Source: Nitrospira sp.
GTDB taxonomy: Bacteria > Nitrospirota > Nitrospiria > Nitrospirales > Nitrospiraceae
Assembly (NCBI GenBank): GCA_024998705.1
Contig: JACOEF010000488.1
Coordinates: 1 to 17,133 of the forward strand
Direction of reading: 5' to 3'
Length of the DNA stretch: 17,133 nucleotides
Positions 4,395 to 11,431 of this stretch are shown piece after piece. The notes below the pieces were generated by a model. That model made no database searches. It saw nothing but the letters and a program-made list of their open reading frames with translations, and was not told where the DNA came from. The first letter of the stretch is position 1; every line of letters starts with the position of its first letter. Position numbers and translations under genes: made by a program.

Positions 4395-5261
4395 ATGTCT
4401 CGACAGTTTGTGCTCCGGTATTCGCTGATCCTTGCCGGTTGGTTGGCGCTGTGCGTGCCCGCGAGTGATGGCAATGTGGAATATGCCGTCATCGACGTGT
4501 CGGACGGGGGCACGATCAAGGGGCAAGCCATCTGGAAAGGGGCGATCCCCGATGTTCCACCGCTGAAGGTCTTTGCCGACCTCGATACCTGCGGAACGGA
4601 GGTGCCGTCGCCGGTCCTCCGGATCGATCCGGCCACCAACGGGCTCCAGGACGTGCTCGTGTACCTCGAGCGGGTGGAGCGGGGGAAAACGGTTGAGCCG
4701 GCCTACCGGCTTGCGATGGGTGCGCATAAGGGAGAGGCCACATCGAAGTCCTGCCAGTTTCAACGCCCGGTGTTTCCGTTCGTTCGGACCTCGCCCGTTG
4801 CGCTGATCAATTTCGAGTCGGTGCTCCACAACCCGCACTTCTTCAACGACAAGCATGGCAGTCTCTTCAACCTCGCGATGCCGACCCCGGATCGGGAACT
4901 GACGACGACGTTGCTCCGCGCGCGCGGCGTCGGGTTGCGATTGCAGTGTGATGTGCATGTTCATATGAACGCCTGGGCGGCGGCATTCGACCATCCCTAT
5001 TTCACCGTGACCGATGAGCAAGGACGCTTCGAAATCGGCGGTATTCCGCCGGGCTCGTACACGCTGGTCGCGTGGCATGCCGGCTACAACATCGTGAAGT
5101 TCGCCGCCTCCCGTCCGGTGTACGACGAGCCTCATGTCATCAGACAGGCTACGACGATGTCACCCAACGGGCAGGCGGAATACCGGTTTGAGTTTCCTGT
5201 CCGGCCGGTGGAAGTCGACTGGAAAATCGCCGGCGGGGACGGAGAACTTCCACCGGAATAA
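4395..5261 (+). CDS. Secreted protein with cupredoxin-like copper motif and carboxypeptidase-regulatory-like domain
   Basis: ATG 4395 is chosen among several in-frame ATGs because GAGG sits six bases upstream and it gives a clean signal peptide (basic start, LILAGWLALCVPA), for a 288-residue precursor. The central part contains LHNPHFFNDKHG (residues 144-155) and CDVHVHMNAW (185-194). A His-Asn pair followed by C-x2-H-x2-M is the ligand order of plastocyanin-type copper sites. The next part, PYFTVTDEQGRFEIGGIPPG then SYTLVAWHAGY (201-231), is the signature of the transthyretin-like carboxypeptidase regulatory fold. Two more Cys (66 and 120) could form a disulfide. It should be periplasmic. 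It is 51 bases upstream of the cytochrome-porin gene and probably co-transcribed, which suggests a role in electron transfer. The domain call is solid; copper binding is inferred. Confidence 0.75.
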   Translation: MSRQFVLRYSLILAGWLALCVPASDGNVEYAVIDVSDGGTIKGQAIWKGAIPDVPPLKVFADLDTCGTEVPSPVLRIDPATNGLQDVLVYLERVERGKTVEPAYRLAMGAHKGEATSKSCQFQRPVFPFVRTSPVALINFESVLHNPHFFNDKHGSLFNLAMPTPDRELTTTLLRARGVGLRLQCDVHVHMNAWAAAFDHPYFTVTDEQGRFEIGGIPPGSYTLVAWHAGYNIVKFAASRPVYDEPHVIRQATTMSPNGQAEYRFEFPVRPVEVDWKIAGGDGELPPE

Positions 5262-5312
5262 CGGACTGCCGGCACGTGATGCTGCATGACTCGCAGAAGG
5301 GAGAGAGATGTG

Positions 5313-6779
5313 ATGAAGATGTCGAAGTTTCGCGCAAGGACCGCCATCGTGATGGTCCTCGCCCTGATCGCGCTGATGAGTTATGAACTGAGTGGTCTTG
5401 TGCCGCGAGCCGATGCGATCCCCGCCTTCGCCCGAAAATACGATTTCAAATGTAACGTGTGTCACGTGCCGGGTTTCCCGAAACTGAACGACTTCGGCAA
5501 CCTGTTCAGGGATCGTGGCTATCAGCTGGGGTCGGATGCGGACTCGCCGGTCTATGAGGGGATCGGAATGGGCTATTGGCCGGTCTCGCTCCGGACGACC
5601 GTCGGGTATCAGGCGGCGAGTGTGCGGACTGACGGGAGCGGCGTGACGACCGGCGGCTTCGGGTTCACCGGACTGGACCTGTTGAGTTTCGGCACGCTGG
5701 ATCGCAATCTGTCCTTCGGTGTCGTCTTTACGCCCGGACTCGGCAGTGCGGGTTTCGGGACAGGCGCATCGGACGGCGACCTGGAGAGCGCGTTTGTCCG
5801 TCTCATGCGGCTCGAACGGTTCCTGGGCGTGAAGAGCGCCAGCGGCGATTACCTGTTGAACCTCAAAGTCGGAAAATTCGAACTCGACCTTCCATTCAGT
5901 GAGAAACGTAGCCCGACGCTGAACACTACCTTTTCAATGTACCACTATATGCCGGGAACGCCCTACGCGGCGACCATCGGCGGGACTTCCACCAGCTCAT
6001 ATCTCAACCCCAATACCTTTGCCATCGGCGAGAATCAGCCCGGCGCAGAACTGTCTGGCATCAAGAAGACTTCCGTCACCGACGGCTATTTTCGATACTC
6101 CTTCTCCGCCCTGGCGACAAACAGTTTTTCTGGCCCCCTGAGCGGCTGCGCGTCCGGCACCACTTGCGGAACGGGCGGGAGGAACGTCAACTTCTACGGC
6201 CATGTCACGCAATCCTTCGGCGGGTACGGCATTGTGACGGGACAGCGGATCGGACTGTTCGGCGCCTACGGTACGGCACCGACGCTGGTCAATCCGACGT
6301 GCCCGACCTGCCAGGCTGTGGCCGGGAGCGGCCAACCGTTCAGTCGTCTGGGGGTGGATGTCAGTCTGACGCTGAACGGGGAATGGAACCTCTTCGGCGC
6401 CTGGATGTGGGGCAACGACAGCAAGAATATGTTCGTGTCGCAGGGGATTGCCGATGCGCAGAATGCCTCCTGGAGCGGCGCGTTTGTCGAACTGGATTAT
6501 GCGCCGGCCCTGTTACCATTGTTTGATATGCCGGATTGGTTTTTTGCCTACCGGTATGATCTTATTCGCAACAATCGCCAGGGTGATCCGACGTTTGCCA
6601 AGAATTATAACAACGTCGATTCCCATACCGTGTTGGTCCGCTACTTCATTCATCATTCAGCCAGGACCGACTTGGCCATGCATGCCGAGTACAATACCTA
6701 CCGTACGACCGGCGTTGGAGTGAACGGCGGCGATCTCGTGGGCCAGACGATGTTGGTCGGGTTTGATTTTGCCTACTGA
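5313..6779 (+). CDS. Cyc2-like outer-membrane monohaem cytochrome c fused to a porin
   Basis: The ATG at 5313 follows GAAGGGAGAGAG; the 488-residue precursor has a signal peptide ending near ADA (residues 33-35). Directly after it comes IPAFARKYDFKCNVCH (36-51), one c-type haem site, then FPKLNDFGNLFRDRGYQ. This N-terminus resembles that of Cyc2-family Fe(II)-oxidising cytochromes (x-PAFARQ-x-C-x2-CH-x-PALN-x-FG). From about residue 80 to the end the sequence alternates hydrophobic and polar residues with Gly/Tyr/Asn-rich loops and ends in an aromatic (GFDFAY), as outer-membrane barrels do. The family role of Cyc2 is to carry electrons from outside into the periplasm. Unusual are four extra Cys in two loop-like segments (CASGTTC and CPTC, about residues 280-340). 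It could instead belong to a related, uncharacterised haem-barrel family with another electron donor. Confidence 0.8.
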   Translation: MKMSKFRARTAIVMVLALIALMSYELSGLVPRADAIPAFARKYDFKCNVCHVPGFPKLNDFGNLFRDRGYQLGSDADSPVYEGIGMGYWPVSLRTTVGYQAASVRTDGSGVTTGGFGFTGLDLLSFGTLDRNLSFGVVFTPGLGSAGFGTGASDGDLESAFVRLMRLERFLGVKSASGDYLLNLKVGKFELDLPFSEKRSPTLNTTFSMYHYMPGTPYAATIGGTSTSSYLNPNTFAIGENQPGAELSGIKKTSVTDGYFRYSFSALATNSFSGPLSGCASGTTCGTGGRNVNFYGHVTQSFGGYGIVTGQRIGLFGAYGTAPTLVNPTCPTCQAVAGSGQPFSRLGVDVSLTLNGEWNLFGAWMWGNDSKNMFVSQGIADAQNASWSGAFVELDYAPALLPLFDMPDWFFAYRYDLIRNNRQGDPTFAKNYNNVDSHTVLVRYFIHHSARTDLAMHAEYNTYRTTGVGVNGGDLVGQTMLVGFDFAY

Positions 6780-6811
6780 TCAGTGAGGCGGGAAGAAAGG
6801 CGGTGCTCCAC

Positions 6812-7636
6812 ATGGCAAACCGGGGCGTTCGATGGCCCGGTGCTATTGCGTGTTTGGTTGCTTGCATGGCTCTGGGTTGTTCGACTGTGAGATCGGCTCA
6901 TGAAGATCCCTGTTTCTCATGCGACGACCAGCGGCTGGTGCGACTCGTGCCGCGCGCGACCCTCGCGTCGAACGCTCAAGGGAGGCCATTTCAGCATCCA
7001 TTCGATTTGACGCAGGCGGAGTGGGAAACAACGTTAGGCAGCGTAATGGTACGTAGCGTTCACAGCCCGCTGCTCGGACCATCATACCAAGGGACCACCG
7101 AGCCGGTCTTTTCCGAGGAGGAGGTGCGATACCTGGGAGTATCGCTCCGGCACGCGTTTCAGCAGGCAACGGCGCAACAGCAGGTCGCCTTCGCGCTGGC
7201 GAGGGTGTCTGACGCGGGTATGGAGCAGTTGACCTCCGGGGCTTGGTTTGTCGAAGCGGGGAGAATCTACCTTCGCTTAGCCAATTGCCGCGTCACGGTC
7301 ACGATGCCGTCGATCCGGAAACAGATCCGGATCAATCCCCTGTTCGCGCAGGCCGGGGCATTTTACGATTTGGTGCCGGGGGAGCGGCAGGCGTTGGTGA
7401 CTCCTGCACGGGATAGCGGCAATCCGTTTCGGCCGGCTCCGGCCGAACTGGAGATCAATTATCGCGGCATGACCGGGCAGGTGCAGGAGCCGGCCTCTTC
7501 CGGCCATACGTCACCGTCGGCTCCAGCCAGGCCCCTGGAGGAGCAACTTGGCTTGTTGAAGCGCCTTCATGAGCAGGGCCTGATTACGGAAGAGGAGTAT
7601 CGAGCCAAGAAGCAACAACTTCTGGATCGGCTGTGA
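6812..7636 (+). CDS. Outer-membrane-type lipoprotein with C-terminal SHOCT domain
   Basis: ATG 6812 is chosen (AGGCGG eight bases upstream); a GTG at 6803 is a possible alternative that adds three residues. The N-terminus is a lipoprotein signal with lipobox MALGC (Cys23), followed by a CFSC pair at residues 34-37. The middle region (about 60-215) has no domain I recognise. A Pro/Ser-rich linker leads to LEEQLGLLKRLHEQGLITEE at about 241-260 and YRAKKQQLLDRL, a typical SHOCT domain (short oligomerisation helix pair). The gene starts 32 bases after the cytochrome-porin stop codon, so it is probably in the same operon and may be an accessory or assembly factor of that system. The lipoprotein and SHOCT calls are firm; the function is unknown. 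Confidence 0.75.
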   Translation: MANRGVRWPGAIACLVACMALGCSTVRSAHEDPCFSCDDQRLVRLVPRATLASNAQGRPFQHPFDLTQAEWETTLGSVMVRSVHSPLLGPSYQGTTEPVFSEEEVRYLGVSLRHAFQQATAQQQVAFALARVSDAGMEQLTSGAWFVEAGRIYLRLANCRVTVTMPSIRKQIRINPLFAQAGAFYDLVPGERQALVTPARDSGNPFRPAPAELEINYRGMTGQVQEPASSGHTSPSAPARPLEEQLGLLKRLHEQGLITEEEYRAKKQQLLDRL

Positions 7637-9231: not shown

Positions 9232-9987
9232 TTACGACCGTCGCTCTTCCGCATACCGGCTGTGGAGTTTGATGGGCGCGGCTCGTTTTTTCCGCATGCG
9301 AATATTCAGCATTTCGACCGTCACGGAAAAGGCCATGGAGAAGTAGATATAACCCTTCGGCACATGGACGTCGAATCCTTCGACCATCAAGGTCACGCCT
9401 ACCAGAATCAGGAACGAGAGGGCCAAAATTTTGATCGTGGGGTGTTCATCCACAAAATCCCCGATGGTCTTTGCCGCCATCAACATCACCACCACCGCAA
9501 GAATGATCGCGACCGCCATAATCGACACATGTTCGACCAGGCCGACGGCCGTAATGACCGAATCCAACGAAAAGACGATGTCCAGCAGCGCAATCTGAAC
9601 GAGCACCATGCCCAGGCTCGCTGCGGCGGTCGTCGTCTCGCCGCCCTCGATACCCTCCAGGCTGTTGTGAATTTCGTGTGTGGCCTTGGCCATGAGGAAC
9701 AGGCCGCCTCCGACTAGGATGAGATCCCGACCTGAGATGCCGTGCCCGAAGATCGTCACCCATGGATGGGTCAGTCCCATCACCCATGAAATGGAAAATA
9801 AGAGTCCCAGGCGCGCCATCATTGCCAGGCCCAGGCCCACTTGGCGTGCGACGGCGCGCTGATGCTCGGGGAGTCGTCCGACGAGGACGGAGAGGAAGAT
9901 AATGTTGTCGATCCCCAGCACGATTTCCAGCGCGGTCAAGGTCCCCAGGGCGATCCATATTTGAGGATCGGCAAGCCAGTCCAGCAT
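9232..9987 (-). CDS. TerC-family integral membrane protein
   Basis: The 251-residue protein starts at ATG 9987, which has GGAG six bases upstream; upstream in-frame TTG (10017) and ATG (9999) have no ribosome site. It carries the TerC signatures ALEIVLGIDNIIFLSVLVGR (19-38), with the membrane-embedded acidic residues Glu21 and Asp27, and DIVFSLDSVITAVGL (136-150). Seven or so hydrophobic segments are visible. The family includes Mn2+ exporters (MeeF/Alx type) and membrane proteins associated with tellurite resistance; the acidic intramembrane residues suggest divalent-metal transport. The C-terminus is short and basic, without the CBS or CorC domains found on some relatives. I looked for an Mn2+ riboswitch of the yybP-ykoY type upstream and did not recognise one. 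Confidence 0.88.
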   Translation of the reverse strand: MLDWLADPQIWIALGTLTALEIVLGIDNIIFLSVLVGRLPEHQRAVARQVGLGLAMMARLGLLFSISWVMGLTHPWVTIFGHGISGRDLILVGGGLFLMAKATHEIHNSLEGIEGGETTTAAASLGMVLVQIALLDIVFSLDSVITAVGLVEHVSIMAVAIILAVVVMLMAAKTIGDFVDEHPTIKILALSFLILVGVTLMVEGFDVHVPKGYIYFSMAFSVTVEMLNIRMRKKRAAPIKLHSRYAEERRS

Positions 9988-10196
9988 CAGCGGCTCCATT
10001 CGTGAAAGAAAAGGCAAACGAGTCGATCGGACATGCGAGGATGTGCGGCATCGAGACGTGTTGAGGAAGTCTACCGTTCCGGGCGGGGCTGCGCAATAAA
10101 AACCAGTCGATGGACGACGTTGTGCGATCCGGTGGATTGATCGGGGAGAGGTCCCTGGGCGGCCTTTCCCGCAGGAAGGGGCTGGGTCAGGGCGGG

Positions 10197-11243
10197 CTAG
10201 ACCGGCTCATCGGGTCGGGAAGTGCGGTGTTGCAGCGATTCGAGGAACAGCAGGTTCAGGTCCTGGGTCATCAGGTTGACGTGGGTTTTAAGCAGGCCCA
10301 GCATCTCAGCGCGATGTCGCAATTCGTTGCTCCGGTAGACCCCCCCTCCGCCAAAATACAGCTCGGTCAGACGTTGCTCCTGCCTCGAGCCGGGTTTGCC
10401 CAGACGGTTTCGCCATTGTCCAATGATATTGTCACGCCGGCTCCGCTTGCCGTTCGGGCGTGCCGGCCTGCTCAGATAGTGCCAGACCGATTGCGGAAAC
10501 TGCTGCCAGGTGGGCTCCCCTCGCCACACGTCTGTCATGAGATTCCGTCCGTGTTTGAACTCATAGGCTTGATCGCCGCCCAGTGCGGCCACGCCGAATC
10601 CCAAGGCGGCCACACTGCCGGAGAGATCGATCAGGCCGGATAGAATCTCCGACCCCAGGAGCAGAAACGTTCCCGCAAACACTCCGGAGATGGAGTCGGC
10701 CAGAATGGCCATGATGGTGCGTCCCTGCTGGATGTCGTTTCGTATTTCTTCAAGCTGCGAGGCCAAGTCCTCCGCTCGCGCTTTTTCGCATTCCAGCTCG
10801 GCGGCGATGCTATTGGCCTCAACCAGTGCAAGGAGCAGGCGATCGGATAATTCCTGCCGTACGGCCAGGGAGCGTAATGAGGCGCTATCCAATCCCTGTG
10901 ACATCTCGTCTTCCAGCAGTTGGAATTCCGCGAGGAGACCATGTACGCCGATGATGGCGGCGACCTCCCTGGCTCGCGGCGAGAAACGGGAGGGGCGGAT
11001 CGGTTCGGTCACGGCGGGGGTTGTGTGGGTGTCGACCCGATGGGTCTGGCCGGTATCCGGCAGGATTGCGATTTCGGTAGGCGGACCGGTCGTAGGGACG
11101 CAATGACTTTCCGTGATCTCATCGTCGTCATCGTCCGTCCTGATCTGAAGTCCTCCGGCGCAGCCTTGCAGGCCTGTGAGGAGCAGACAGCAAGCAAAAA
11201 TTCCGAGACGGGTTCGATATGAACGAGATGTATGCTCTGGCAC
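10197..11243 (-). CDS. Unrecognised lipoprotein with coiled coil and hydrophobic segment
   Basis: The frame is open much further upstream, but the first sensible start is GTG 11243, which gives a lipoprotein signal with lipobox LTGLQGC (Cys28). No Shine-Dalgarno is visible, so the start is uncertain. After a Pro/Thr/Asp-rich linker (about 35-90, including DDDDDE) comes a long Leu/Glu/Ala helical region (about 104-175). Then comes a hydrophobic, Gly-rich stretch (176-223, with GVFAGTFLLLG and VAALGFGVAALGG) able to cross or insert in a membrane. A basic, aromatic tail follows (WRGEPTWQQFPQSVWHYLSR). The order suggests an envelope protein with a helical stalk and a glycine-zipper-like hairpin. 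I do not recognise a family. It is downstream of the CBS gene on the same strand but 500 bases away. Confidence 0.6.
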   Translation of the reverse strand: MPEHTSRSYRTRLGIFACCLLLTGLQGCAGGLQIRTDDDDDEITESHCVPTTGPPTEIAILPDTGQTHRVDTHTTPAVTEPIRPSRFSPRAREVAAIIGVHGLLAEFQLLEDEMSQGLDSASLRSLAVRQELSDRLLLALVEANSIAAELECEKARAEDLASQLEEIRNDIQQGRTIMAILADSISGVFAGTFLLLGSEILSGLIDLSGSVAALGFGVAALGGDQAYEFKHGRNLMTDVWRGEPTWQQFPQSVWHYLSRPARPNGKRSRRDNIIGQWRNRLGKPGSRQEQRLTELYFGGGGVYRSNELRHRAEMLGLLKTHVNLMTQDLNLLFLESLQHRTSRPDEPV

Positions 11244-11431
11244 GGTAGCCGTTCGTATGAGGGACGGGTTAAGTTGCAGCCGGTGTCGATGGATACCAGC
11301 GTAGGAAATGTCCGCGGCGTTTGCCCTGACAGGTTTCCGTGCACGCGACCGAATGTATTCCCGCGCGAGGACGGAACACCTTGCGCGGATGGTGTCGTTC
11401 ACCATCGCAGCGGAGCACCCACGTCTTTCCG

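Follow-up and report, generated by a model that had tools for sequence, protein, structure and literature searches.

The window, a stretch of 17,133 nucleotides covering contig JACOEF010000488.1 of a Nitrospira sp. assembly (GCA_024998705.1), carries three adjoining genes that encode a secreted cupredoxin (P1), a Cyc2-like monohaem cytochrome-porin (P2) and a SHOCT-domain protein (P3). We favour, with somewhat more confidence than doubt, the reading that they form an operon for outer-membrane electron transfer, in which electrons would run from the haem pore of P2 to the copper of P1 and on to the respiratory chain, with P3 in an accessory role. P2 would be an outer-membrane porin barrel holding one c-type haem in its N-terminal segment, and a small reduced donor, likeliest Fe2+ to judge from Cyc2, would reach this haem through the pore. 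By contact with P2, the putative periplasmic type-1 copper protein P1 would accept the electron and pass it to the respiratory chain, in the place that a one-haem cytochrome c has in related genera, and P3 may be an accessory envelope protein tracking P2.

Conservation of the Gene Cluster within the Genus

Among 29 genomes of the genus, P1 (E 1e-40 or better) and P2 (E 1e-60 or better) were each found in 23, with 22 of the P2 matches at 80% identity or more. In all 22 of these genomes P1 ends 14–93 bp upstream of P2 on the same strand, as measured between match ends. P3 (1e-30 or better) lies downstream of P2 in 21 of them, and in the 22nd, G342, P2 stands at a contig end. P1 and P2 are both lacking from the same six genomes (G018, G112, G123, G338, G344 and G346). 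The original prediction, made from the letters of the window alone, had proposed synteny in related genomes as a check, and the three genes indeed co-occur there.

It is conceivable that the genes are mere neighbours without a shared function, since P1-like proteins are common (143 of 295 Nitrospirota genomes contain a match, and many contain several) and P2 and P3 are found together without P1 in other genera. However, the invariable adjacency and joint absence within the genus, as well as the repeated meeting of distant family members (on a tree with 102 scored rows, the presence or absence of a P1 neighbour switches at least 11 times), make this explanation the hardest of all to credit.

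The overlap rule of our gene-neighbourhood survey missed P1 in L047 and P3 in L045, L047 and L062, all of which are present in a direct search; the same rule left P1 of L208 unlabelled in the survey of P1 relatives.

Apparent Exchange of the Carrier Gene in Other Genera

The gene preceding P2 differs outside the genus. In 10 of the 15 window-type loci there (L050–L064), it encodes a one-haem cytochrome c (L050–L055, L057, L059, L061 and L062) and ends anywhere from 4 bp inside P2 to 196 bp before it; the cytochrome of L053 matches Pfam Cytochrom_C. P1 is upstream of P2 in none of these 15 loci, L053 having it after P3, and no cytochrome c adjoins P2 in the seven loci surveyed within the genus. 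Judged by gene position, the periplasmic carrier beside P2 seems to have been exchanged between genera, with P1 in this genus and a one-haem cytochrome c elsewhere. Because a different type of carrier occupies the same position, an electron-transfer role is suggested for the slot.

The same exchange bears on the possibility that the cluster serves metal homeostasis, with P2 as an iron or copper entry pore bearing a redox haem and P1 delivering or detoxifying copper rather than carrying electrons. P1 does possess all four copper ligands on sequence, and its relatives stand beside other barrels (Alginate_exp in G214 and G070) and near a multicopper oxidase in L212. However, a one-haem cytochrome c is no metal carrier, and the ligand set of P1 is that of amicyanin-type electron carriers, so that we consider a homeostatic role distinctly improbable.

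A sister-type cytochrome c is matched at 1e-10 or better in 118 of 118 genomes of the family, many at about 45–52% identity. Its loss from the genus is consequently unsupported, and only its absence beside P2 in the seven surveyed loci is seen. In one genome of the genus with P1 beside P2, a 62% match to this cytochrome (G246:C1:364730-365086) contains two in-frame TGA codons and is possibly a relic. A further side observation concerns L057:6141-7935, where the P2 gene of G197 is broken across two frames and still adjoins the cytochrome c and P3 genes; this reflects either real damage or an assembly error.

P1: A Cupredoxin Apparently within a Split Transthyretin-like Domain

P1 contains the motif CDVHVHM, in agreement with the C-x2-H-x2-M copper-type motif noted originally. 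His145, Asn146, Cys185, His188 and Met191 are invariant in 66 aligned sequences, including that of the window, and the His-Cys-His-Met ligand set is also invariant in 18 divergent P1-like sequences. Structure comparison assigns P1 a cupredoxin fold. By its ligand set and fold P1 would be a type-1 copper protein, with copper binding predicted.

The original prediction had a cupredoxin fused to a transthyretin-like domain. Both domains are recovered, and the arrangement differs: in the structural alignments, the cupredoxin appears to be inserted into the transthyretin-like domain, not simply fused beside it. The structures 6hif_Y, 3is0 and 3kpt_B reach across residues 34–274, yet align just 82–98 positions. 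The profile of Pfam CarboxypepD_reg is matched below cut-off at its positions 30–62 only, at residues 202–234, and fn3_3 (polysaccharide lyase) is matched above cut-off at residues 201–231. When the PDB was searched with the P1 sequence alone, NOMO2 (0.026) and one further chain (0.68) were the only matches. An NCBIfam search listed no family for either P1 or P2, and rusticyanin is not among the matches listed in the fold and profile comparisons of P1.

P2: A Cyc2-like Cytochrome-Porin

Cyc2 proteins are defined by the motif AXPXFAR[Q/K][T/Y] upstream of a single CXXCH, PXL four residues downstream, a minimum length of 365 residues and a porin-type barrel of about 16 strands (PMC8406198). P2, of 488 residues, contains in this order AIPAFARKY, three residues, CNVCH, four residues (VPGF) and PKL, followed by a predicted barrel, so motif, length and barrel all agree with its original labelling as Cyc2-like. 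The definition text places the motif five residues upstream of CXXCH; the spacing in the reference Cyc2 of L153 is three residues, as in P2. Cys47, Cys50 and His51 are invariant in 88 aligned sequences, the window included. Such conservation, like that of the P1 residues, greatly exceeds what chance would give. In Foldseek the P2 model is closest to OprP/OprO, the barrel likenesses overall being OprP, OprO and PorB. A further criterion for Cyc2 asks that a database search by blastp give similarity to a Cyc2 at 1e-5 or better. In single-pair blastp comparisons, whose values are not database E values, P2 resembles Cyc2 proteins at the cytochrome end only (5e-8 for L153 and 1e-11 for L126).

A Pfam search with P2 returned no family. 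The only matches in a PDB sequence search were haemagglutinin chains (E 0.1 or worse, residues 384–470), which we take as chance. Cys330 and Cys333, forming a C-x2-C pair (window 6300–6311), are likewise invariant in the 88 aligned sequences and lie in a loop between the strands 311–322 and 341–354; strand counting in the model places this loop probably on the extracellular side.

Several observations weigh against the proposed electron-transfer operon. Profile similarity of P2 to ten reference Cyc2 proteins covers just 67 columns at the cytochrome end. In a FastTree tree with long branches, which includes neither Acidithiobacillus Cyc2 nor Leptospirillum Cyt572, P2 falls outside a 49-row clade (support 100) holding all ten references, and by the same placement outside Cyc2 Cluster 1 of neutrophilic iron oxidisers. 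The haem segment (residues 30–41 and 47–58) has predicted local distance difference test (pLDDT) scores below 50; of the structure proposed originally, a barrel plugged by the haem peptide, the barrel is predicted and the plug is not supported by the model. In genome G326, P1 (70%) and the only P2 (52%) are on different contigs, with P2 beside a cytochrome c. Finally, some relatives of P1 stand in stretches where no Cyc2-like gene is present.

Because P2 falls outside the reference Cyc2 clade, both the donor and the direction of electron flow are unproven. The sequence itself does not settle the direction, and P1 could in principle reduce the P2 haem, with electrons leaving outward; however, iron oxidation is the activity of the Cyc2 proteins characterised to date (PMC8406198), and we regard such export as very improbable.

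P3 and the Transcription Unit

P3 matches the SHOCT domain at 34 bits against a Pfam cut-off of 27, as originally proposed. Its designation as a lipoprotein is clear for the genus only: read by eye from the alignment, a lipobox-like GC stands in the window protein and in the majority of rows of the genus, and many rows of other genera show no clear one. The N-terminal CxxC is found in 16 of 18 aligned members.

The predicted open reading frames and their common strand were confirmed (Table 1). The gap between P1 and P2 is 51 bases, as noted before; that between P2 and P3 is 32 bases counted from the ATG at 6812, the value given originally, and 23 from the GTG at 6803. Because a terminator-like hairpin (z −5.87, equalled in stability by 0 of 200 shuffles) stands 5′ of P1, we suggest that P1, P2 and P3 begin a separate transcription unit, in which they would be co-transcribed. 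This hairpin was not listed by a terminator consensus scan with a loop limit of 8. The five terminator-like sites which that scan gave in the window are all intragenic; no promoter was found in a scan of the window, nor did any Rfam family reach its gathering score there.

Table 1. Features of the P1–P2–P3 region, in window coordinates.
Feature	Position	Strand	Basis
Hairpin, terminator-like, then T-rich tail, 5′ of P1	4302-4339	+	Fold −28.3 kcal/mol
P1, secreted cupredoxin within transthyretin/CarboxypepD_reg-like domain, 288 amino acids	4395-5261	+	Open reading frame, Pfam, alignment, structure comparison
P1 split transthyretin-like domain, first half, about residues 34-98	4494-4688	+	Structure alignment; boundary approximate
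P1 cupredoxin domain, about residues 99-199	4689-4991	+	Ligand conservation, amicyanin profile match E 4.5e-8
P1 predicted copper ligands His145, Cys185, His188, Met191	4827, 4947, 4956, 4965	+	Alignment
P1 split transthyretin-like domain, second half, about residues 200-274	4992-5216	+	Pfam CarboxypepD_reg, fn3_3
P2, Cyc2-like monohaem cytochrome-porin, 488 amino acids	5313-6779	+	Open reading frame, alignment, structure model, Foldseek
P2 Cyc2 motif AIPAFARKY, haem motif CNVCH (5451-5465), PKL	5415-5486	+	Sequence; definition in PMC8406198
P2 predicted porin barrel, residues 92-487, 17 strands in model	5586-6773	+	Structure model
P3, SHOCT protein with lipobox-like ALGC and N-terminal CxxC (6911-6922)	6803-7636	+	Open reading frame, Pfam

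By Pfam, an O-methyltransferase gene lies upstream of the cluster, and genes for a methyltransferase and a Slp-type lipoprotein lie downstream. Further on, mostly on the reverse strand between 9232 and 17016, long open reading frames resemble, as judged by eye from their translations, a TerC-type membrane protein, CBS-domain proteins, a cation-transport P-type ATPase and a universal stress protein.

Wider Family and Sensor-Linked Loci

In more distant, paralogous loci the commonest gene order, or a permutation of it, is Cyc2-like protein, dihaem cytochrome c, cupredoxin of the P1 family and histidine kinase. It is found in L073:1538-7470 (the second locus of G055), L072, L074, L078, L080, L090, L102 and L104–L106, the dihaem cytochrome c of L104 being unlabelled; in L079 a P3-like gene takes the place of this cytochrome. 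The kinase of L073 is of the hybrid type: it has receiver and Hpt domains and matches Cache weakly. In L068:6635-11658 a methyl-accepting chemotaxis protein (MCP) takes the kinase's place, an array in which redox taxis is possible. Pfam tests at sister loci covered the named proteins, and the other cytochrome and kinase labels come from phmmer.

Since kinase and MCP genes neighbour sister loci, the main rival to a respiratory role is redox or metal sensing: the cytochrome-porin would sample extracellular redox species and the cupredoxin would signal onward to a chemoreceptor or sensor kinase, the sensor of the window cluster being encoded elsewhere. A kinase or MCP is present in 20 of 32 tree rows with a P1-like neighbour versus 16 of 70 without, these being counts over related rows, and for Sideroxydans the possibility that Cyc2 takes part in iron sensing has been put forward (PMC12016527). 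However, no kinase or MCP stands beside P1–P2–P3 in the window or in six other surveyed loci of the genus, and an independent-pairs test of P1-like neighbours against sensor genes is uninformative (median p 1). We hold sensing in place of respiration to be rather unlikely.

As for how often the two families meet, a same-strand P1-family gene lies within 3 kb of a Cyc2-like gene in 11 of 35 cases among loci from the P2 list (L085–L121; rough chance 0.5%); L123, with a Cyc2-like gene and no P1, is outside this count. In loci from named genomes, which comprise 80 of 562 confirmed stretches, the same holds for 4 of 82 Cyc2 genes, all four from Nitrospirota (L187, L190, L192 and L194); a contig end is close by for 36 of the 82. 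Over mixed locus sets, P1 lies within 3 kb of 28 of 53 Cyc2-like genes with A.P.FAR versus 3 of 27 without. Set C of these loci was partly picked for a P1 match already seen nearby, and set A comprises the remaining listed class-level P2 places, P1 having been noted near G256:C87, G197:C21 and G272:C4. The tree and state counts were thinned by leaving out 11 odd-numbered loci (L163–L183).

A Cyc2 gene with canonical FARQT, placed inside the reference clade (L117:9088-11328, reverse strand; Cyc2 at 9859–11328), directly adjoins a P1-family cupredoxin. Where the fetched stretch contains no Cyc2-like gene, P1 relatives adjoin Alginate_exp barrels (G214 and G070), MCP genes (L210 and L211) or cytochrome c genes (L209 and L212, with a multicopper oxidase in the latter). 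In L205, L206 and L207, relatives of about 48% identity are followed by a large protein, with an Alginate_exp barrel match in L205 and L207.

Comparison with Known Systems and Significance

P2 shares its motifs, length and porin-type barrel with the fused cytochrome-porins Cyc2 and Cyt572 of iron oxidisers, and differs from Cyc2 in its position on the tree and in a similarity confined to the cytochrome segment. Cyc2 homologues are reported in Nitrospirales (PMC9040806), and the cyc2 genes of Nitrospirae are described as distant from their counterparts in Zeta- and Betaproteobacteria (PMC7329443). Leptospirillum Cyc572 reportedly groups with Nitrospira and Acidobacteria homologues (PMC10654088).

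In the rus operon of Acidithiobacillus ferrooxidans, Cyc2 is likewise encoded near a periplasmic blue copper acceptor, together with Cyc1, and electron transfer from Cyc2 to this acceptor, rusticyanin, is given as established (PMC10654088). The window differs in that P1 is a predicted cupredoxin in a split transthyretin-like domain, its gene directly adjoins P2, and no oxidase genes are present. Slit_1816 of Sideroxydans lithotrophicus ES-1, reported to be higher on magnetite, combines a cupredoxin with adhesin- and polysaccharide-lyase-like domains (PMC12016527), reminiscent of the fn3_3 match in P1; however, it sits with multicopper-type proteins and not beside Cyc2. We do not claim it as a P1 homologue: a P1-family search of ten genomes gave matches in three (two of them Nitrospira, the third being Mariprofundus micogutta with a partial match) and in none of five Sideroxydans genomes, with ES-1 not knowingly among them.

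Since Cyc2 homologues in Nitrospirales and the pairing of Cyc2 with rusticyanin are already published, the original statement that such an arrangement was not known to be described was too wide. What stands is narrower: in the open-licence literature searched, judged mostly from listings, we recognised no paper that reports a cupredoxin partner of this split-domain type, the carrier exchange or the kinase-linked form. Plastocyanin and cytochrome c6 are a copper protein and a cytochrome c that share one carrier role. The apparent exchange of P1 resembles this pair in placing both types of protein in one role, and is deduced for P1 from gene position.

Nitrospira are known for nitrite and ammonia oxidation. 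Their genomes hold conserved cytochrome-porins, for which the conserved adjoining carrier, seemingly swapped with cytochrome c between genera, provides a concrete partner, and the split-domain cupredoxin offers a further marker, useful for systems of this kind in which similarity to Cyc2 is by itself low. We speculate, with considerable reserve, that the cupredoxin-in-transthyretin proteins of Nitrospiria could be dedicated periplasmic relays for Cyc2-like conduits, interchangeable with cytochrome c and wired in sister loci to histidine kinases or chemoreceptors, so that these bacteria would read and act on the extracellular redox state via an outer-membrane haem. The finding raises the question whether these nitrifiers draw electrons from their surroundings or sense the extracellular redox state.

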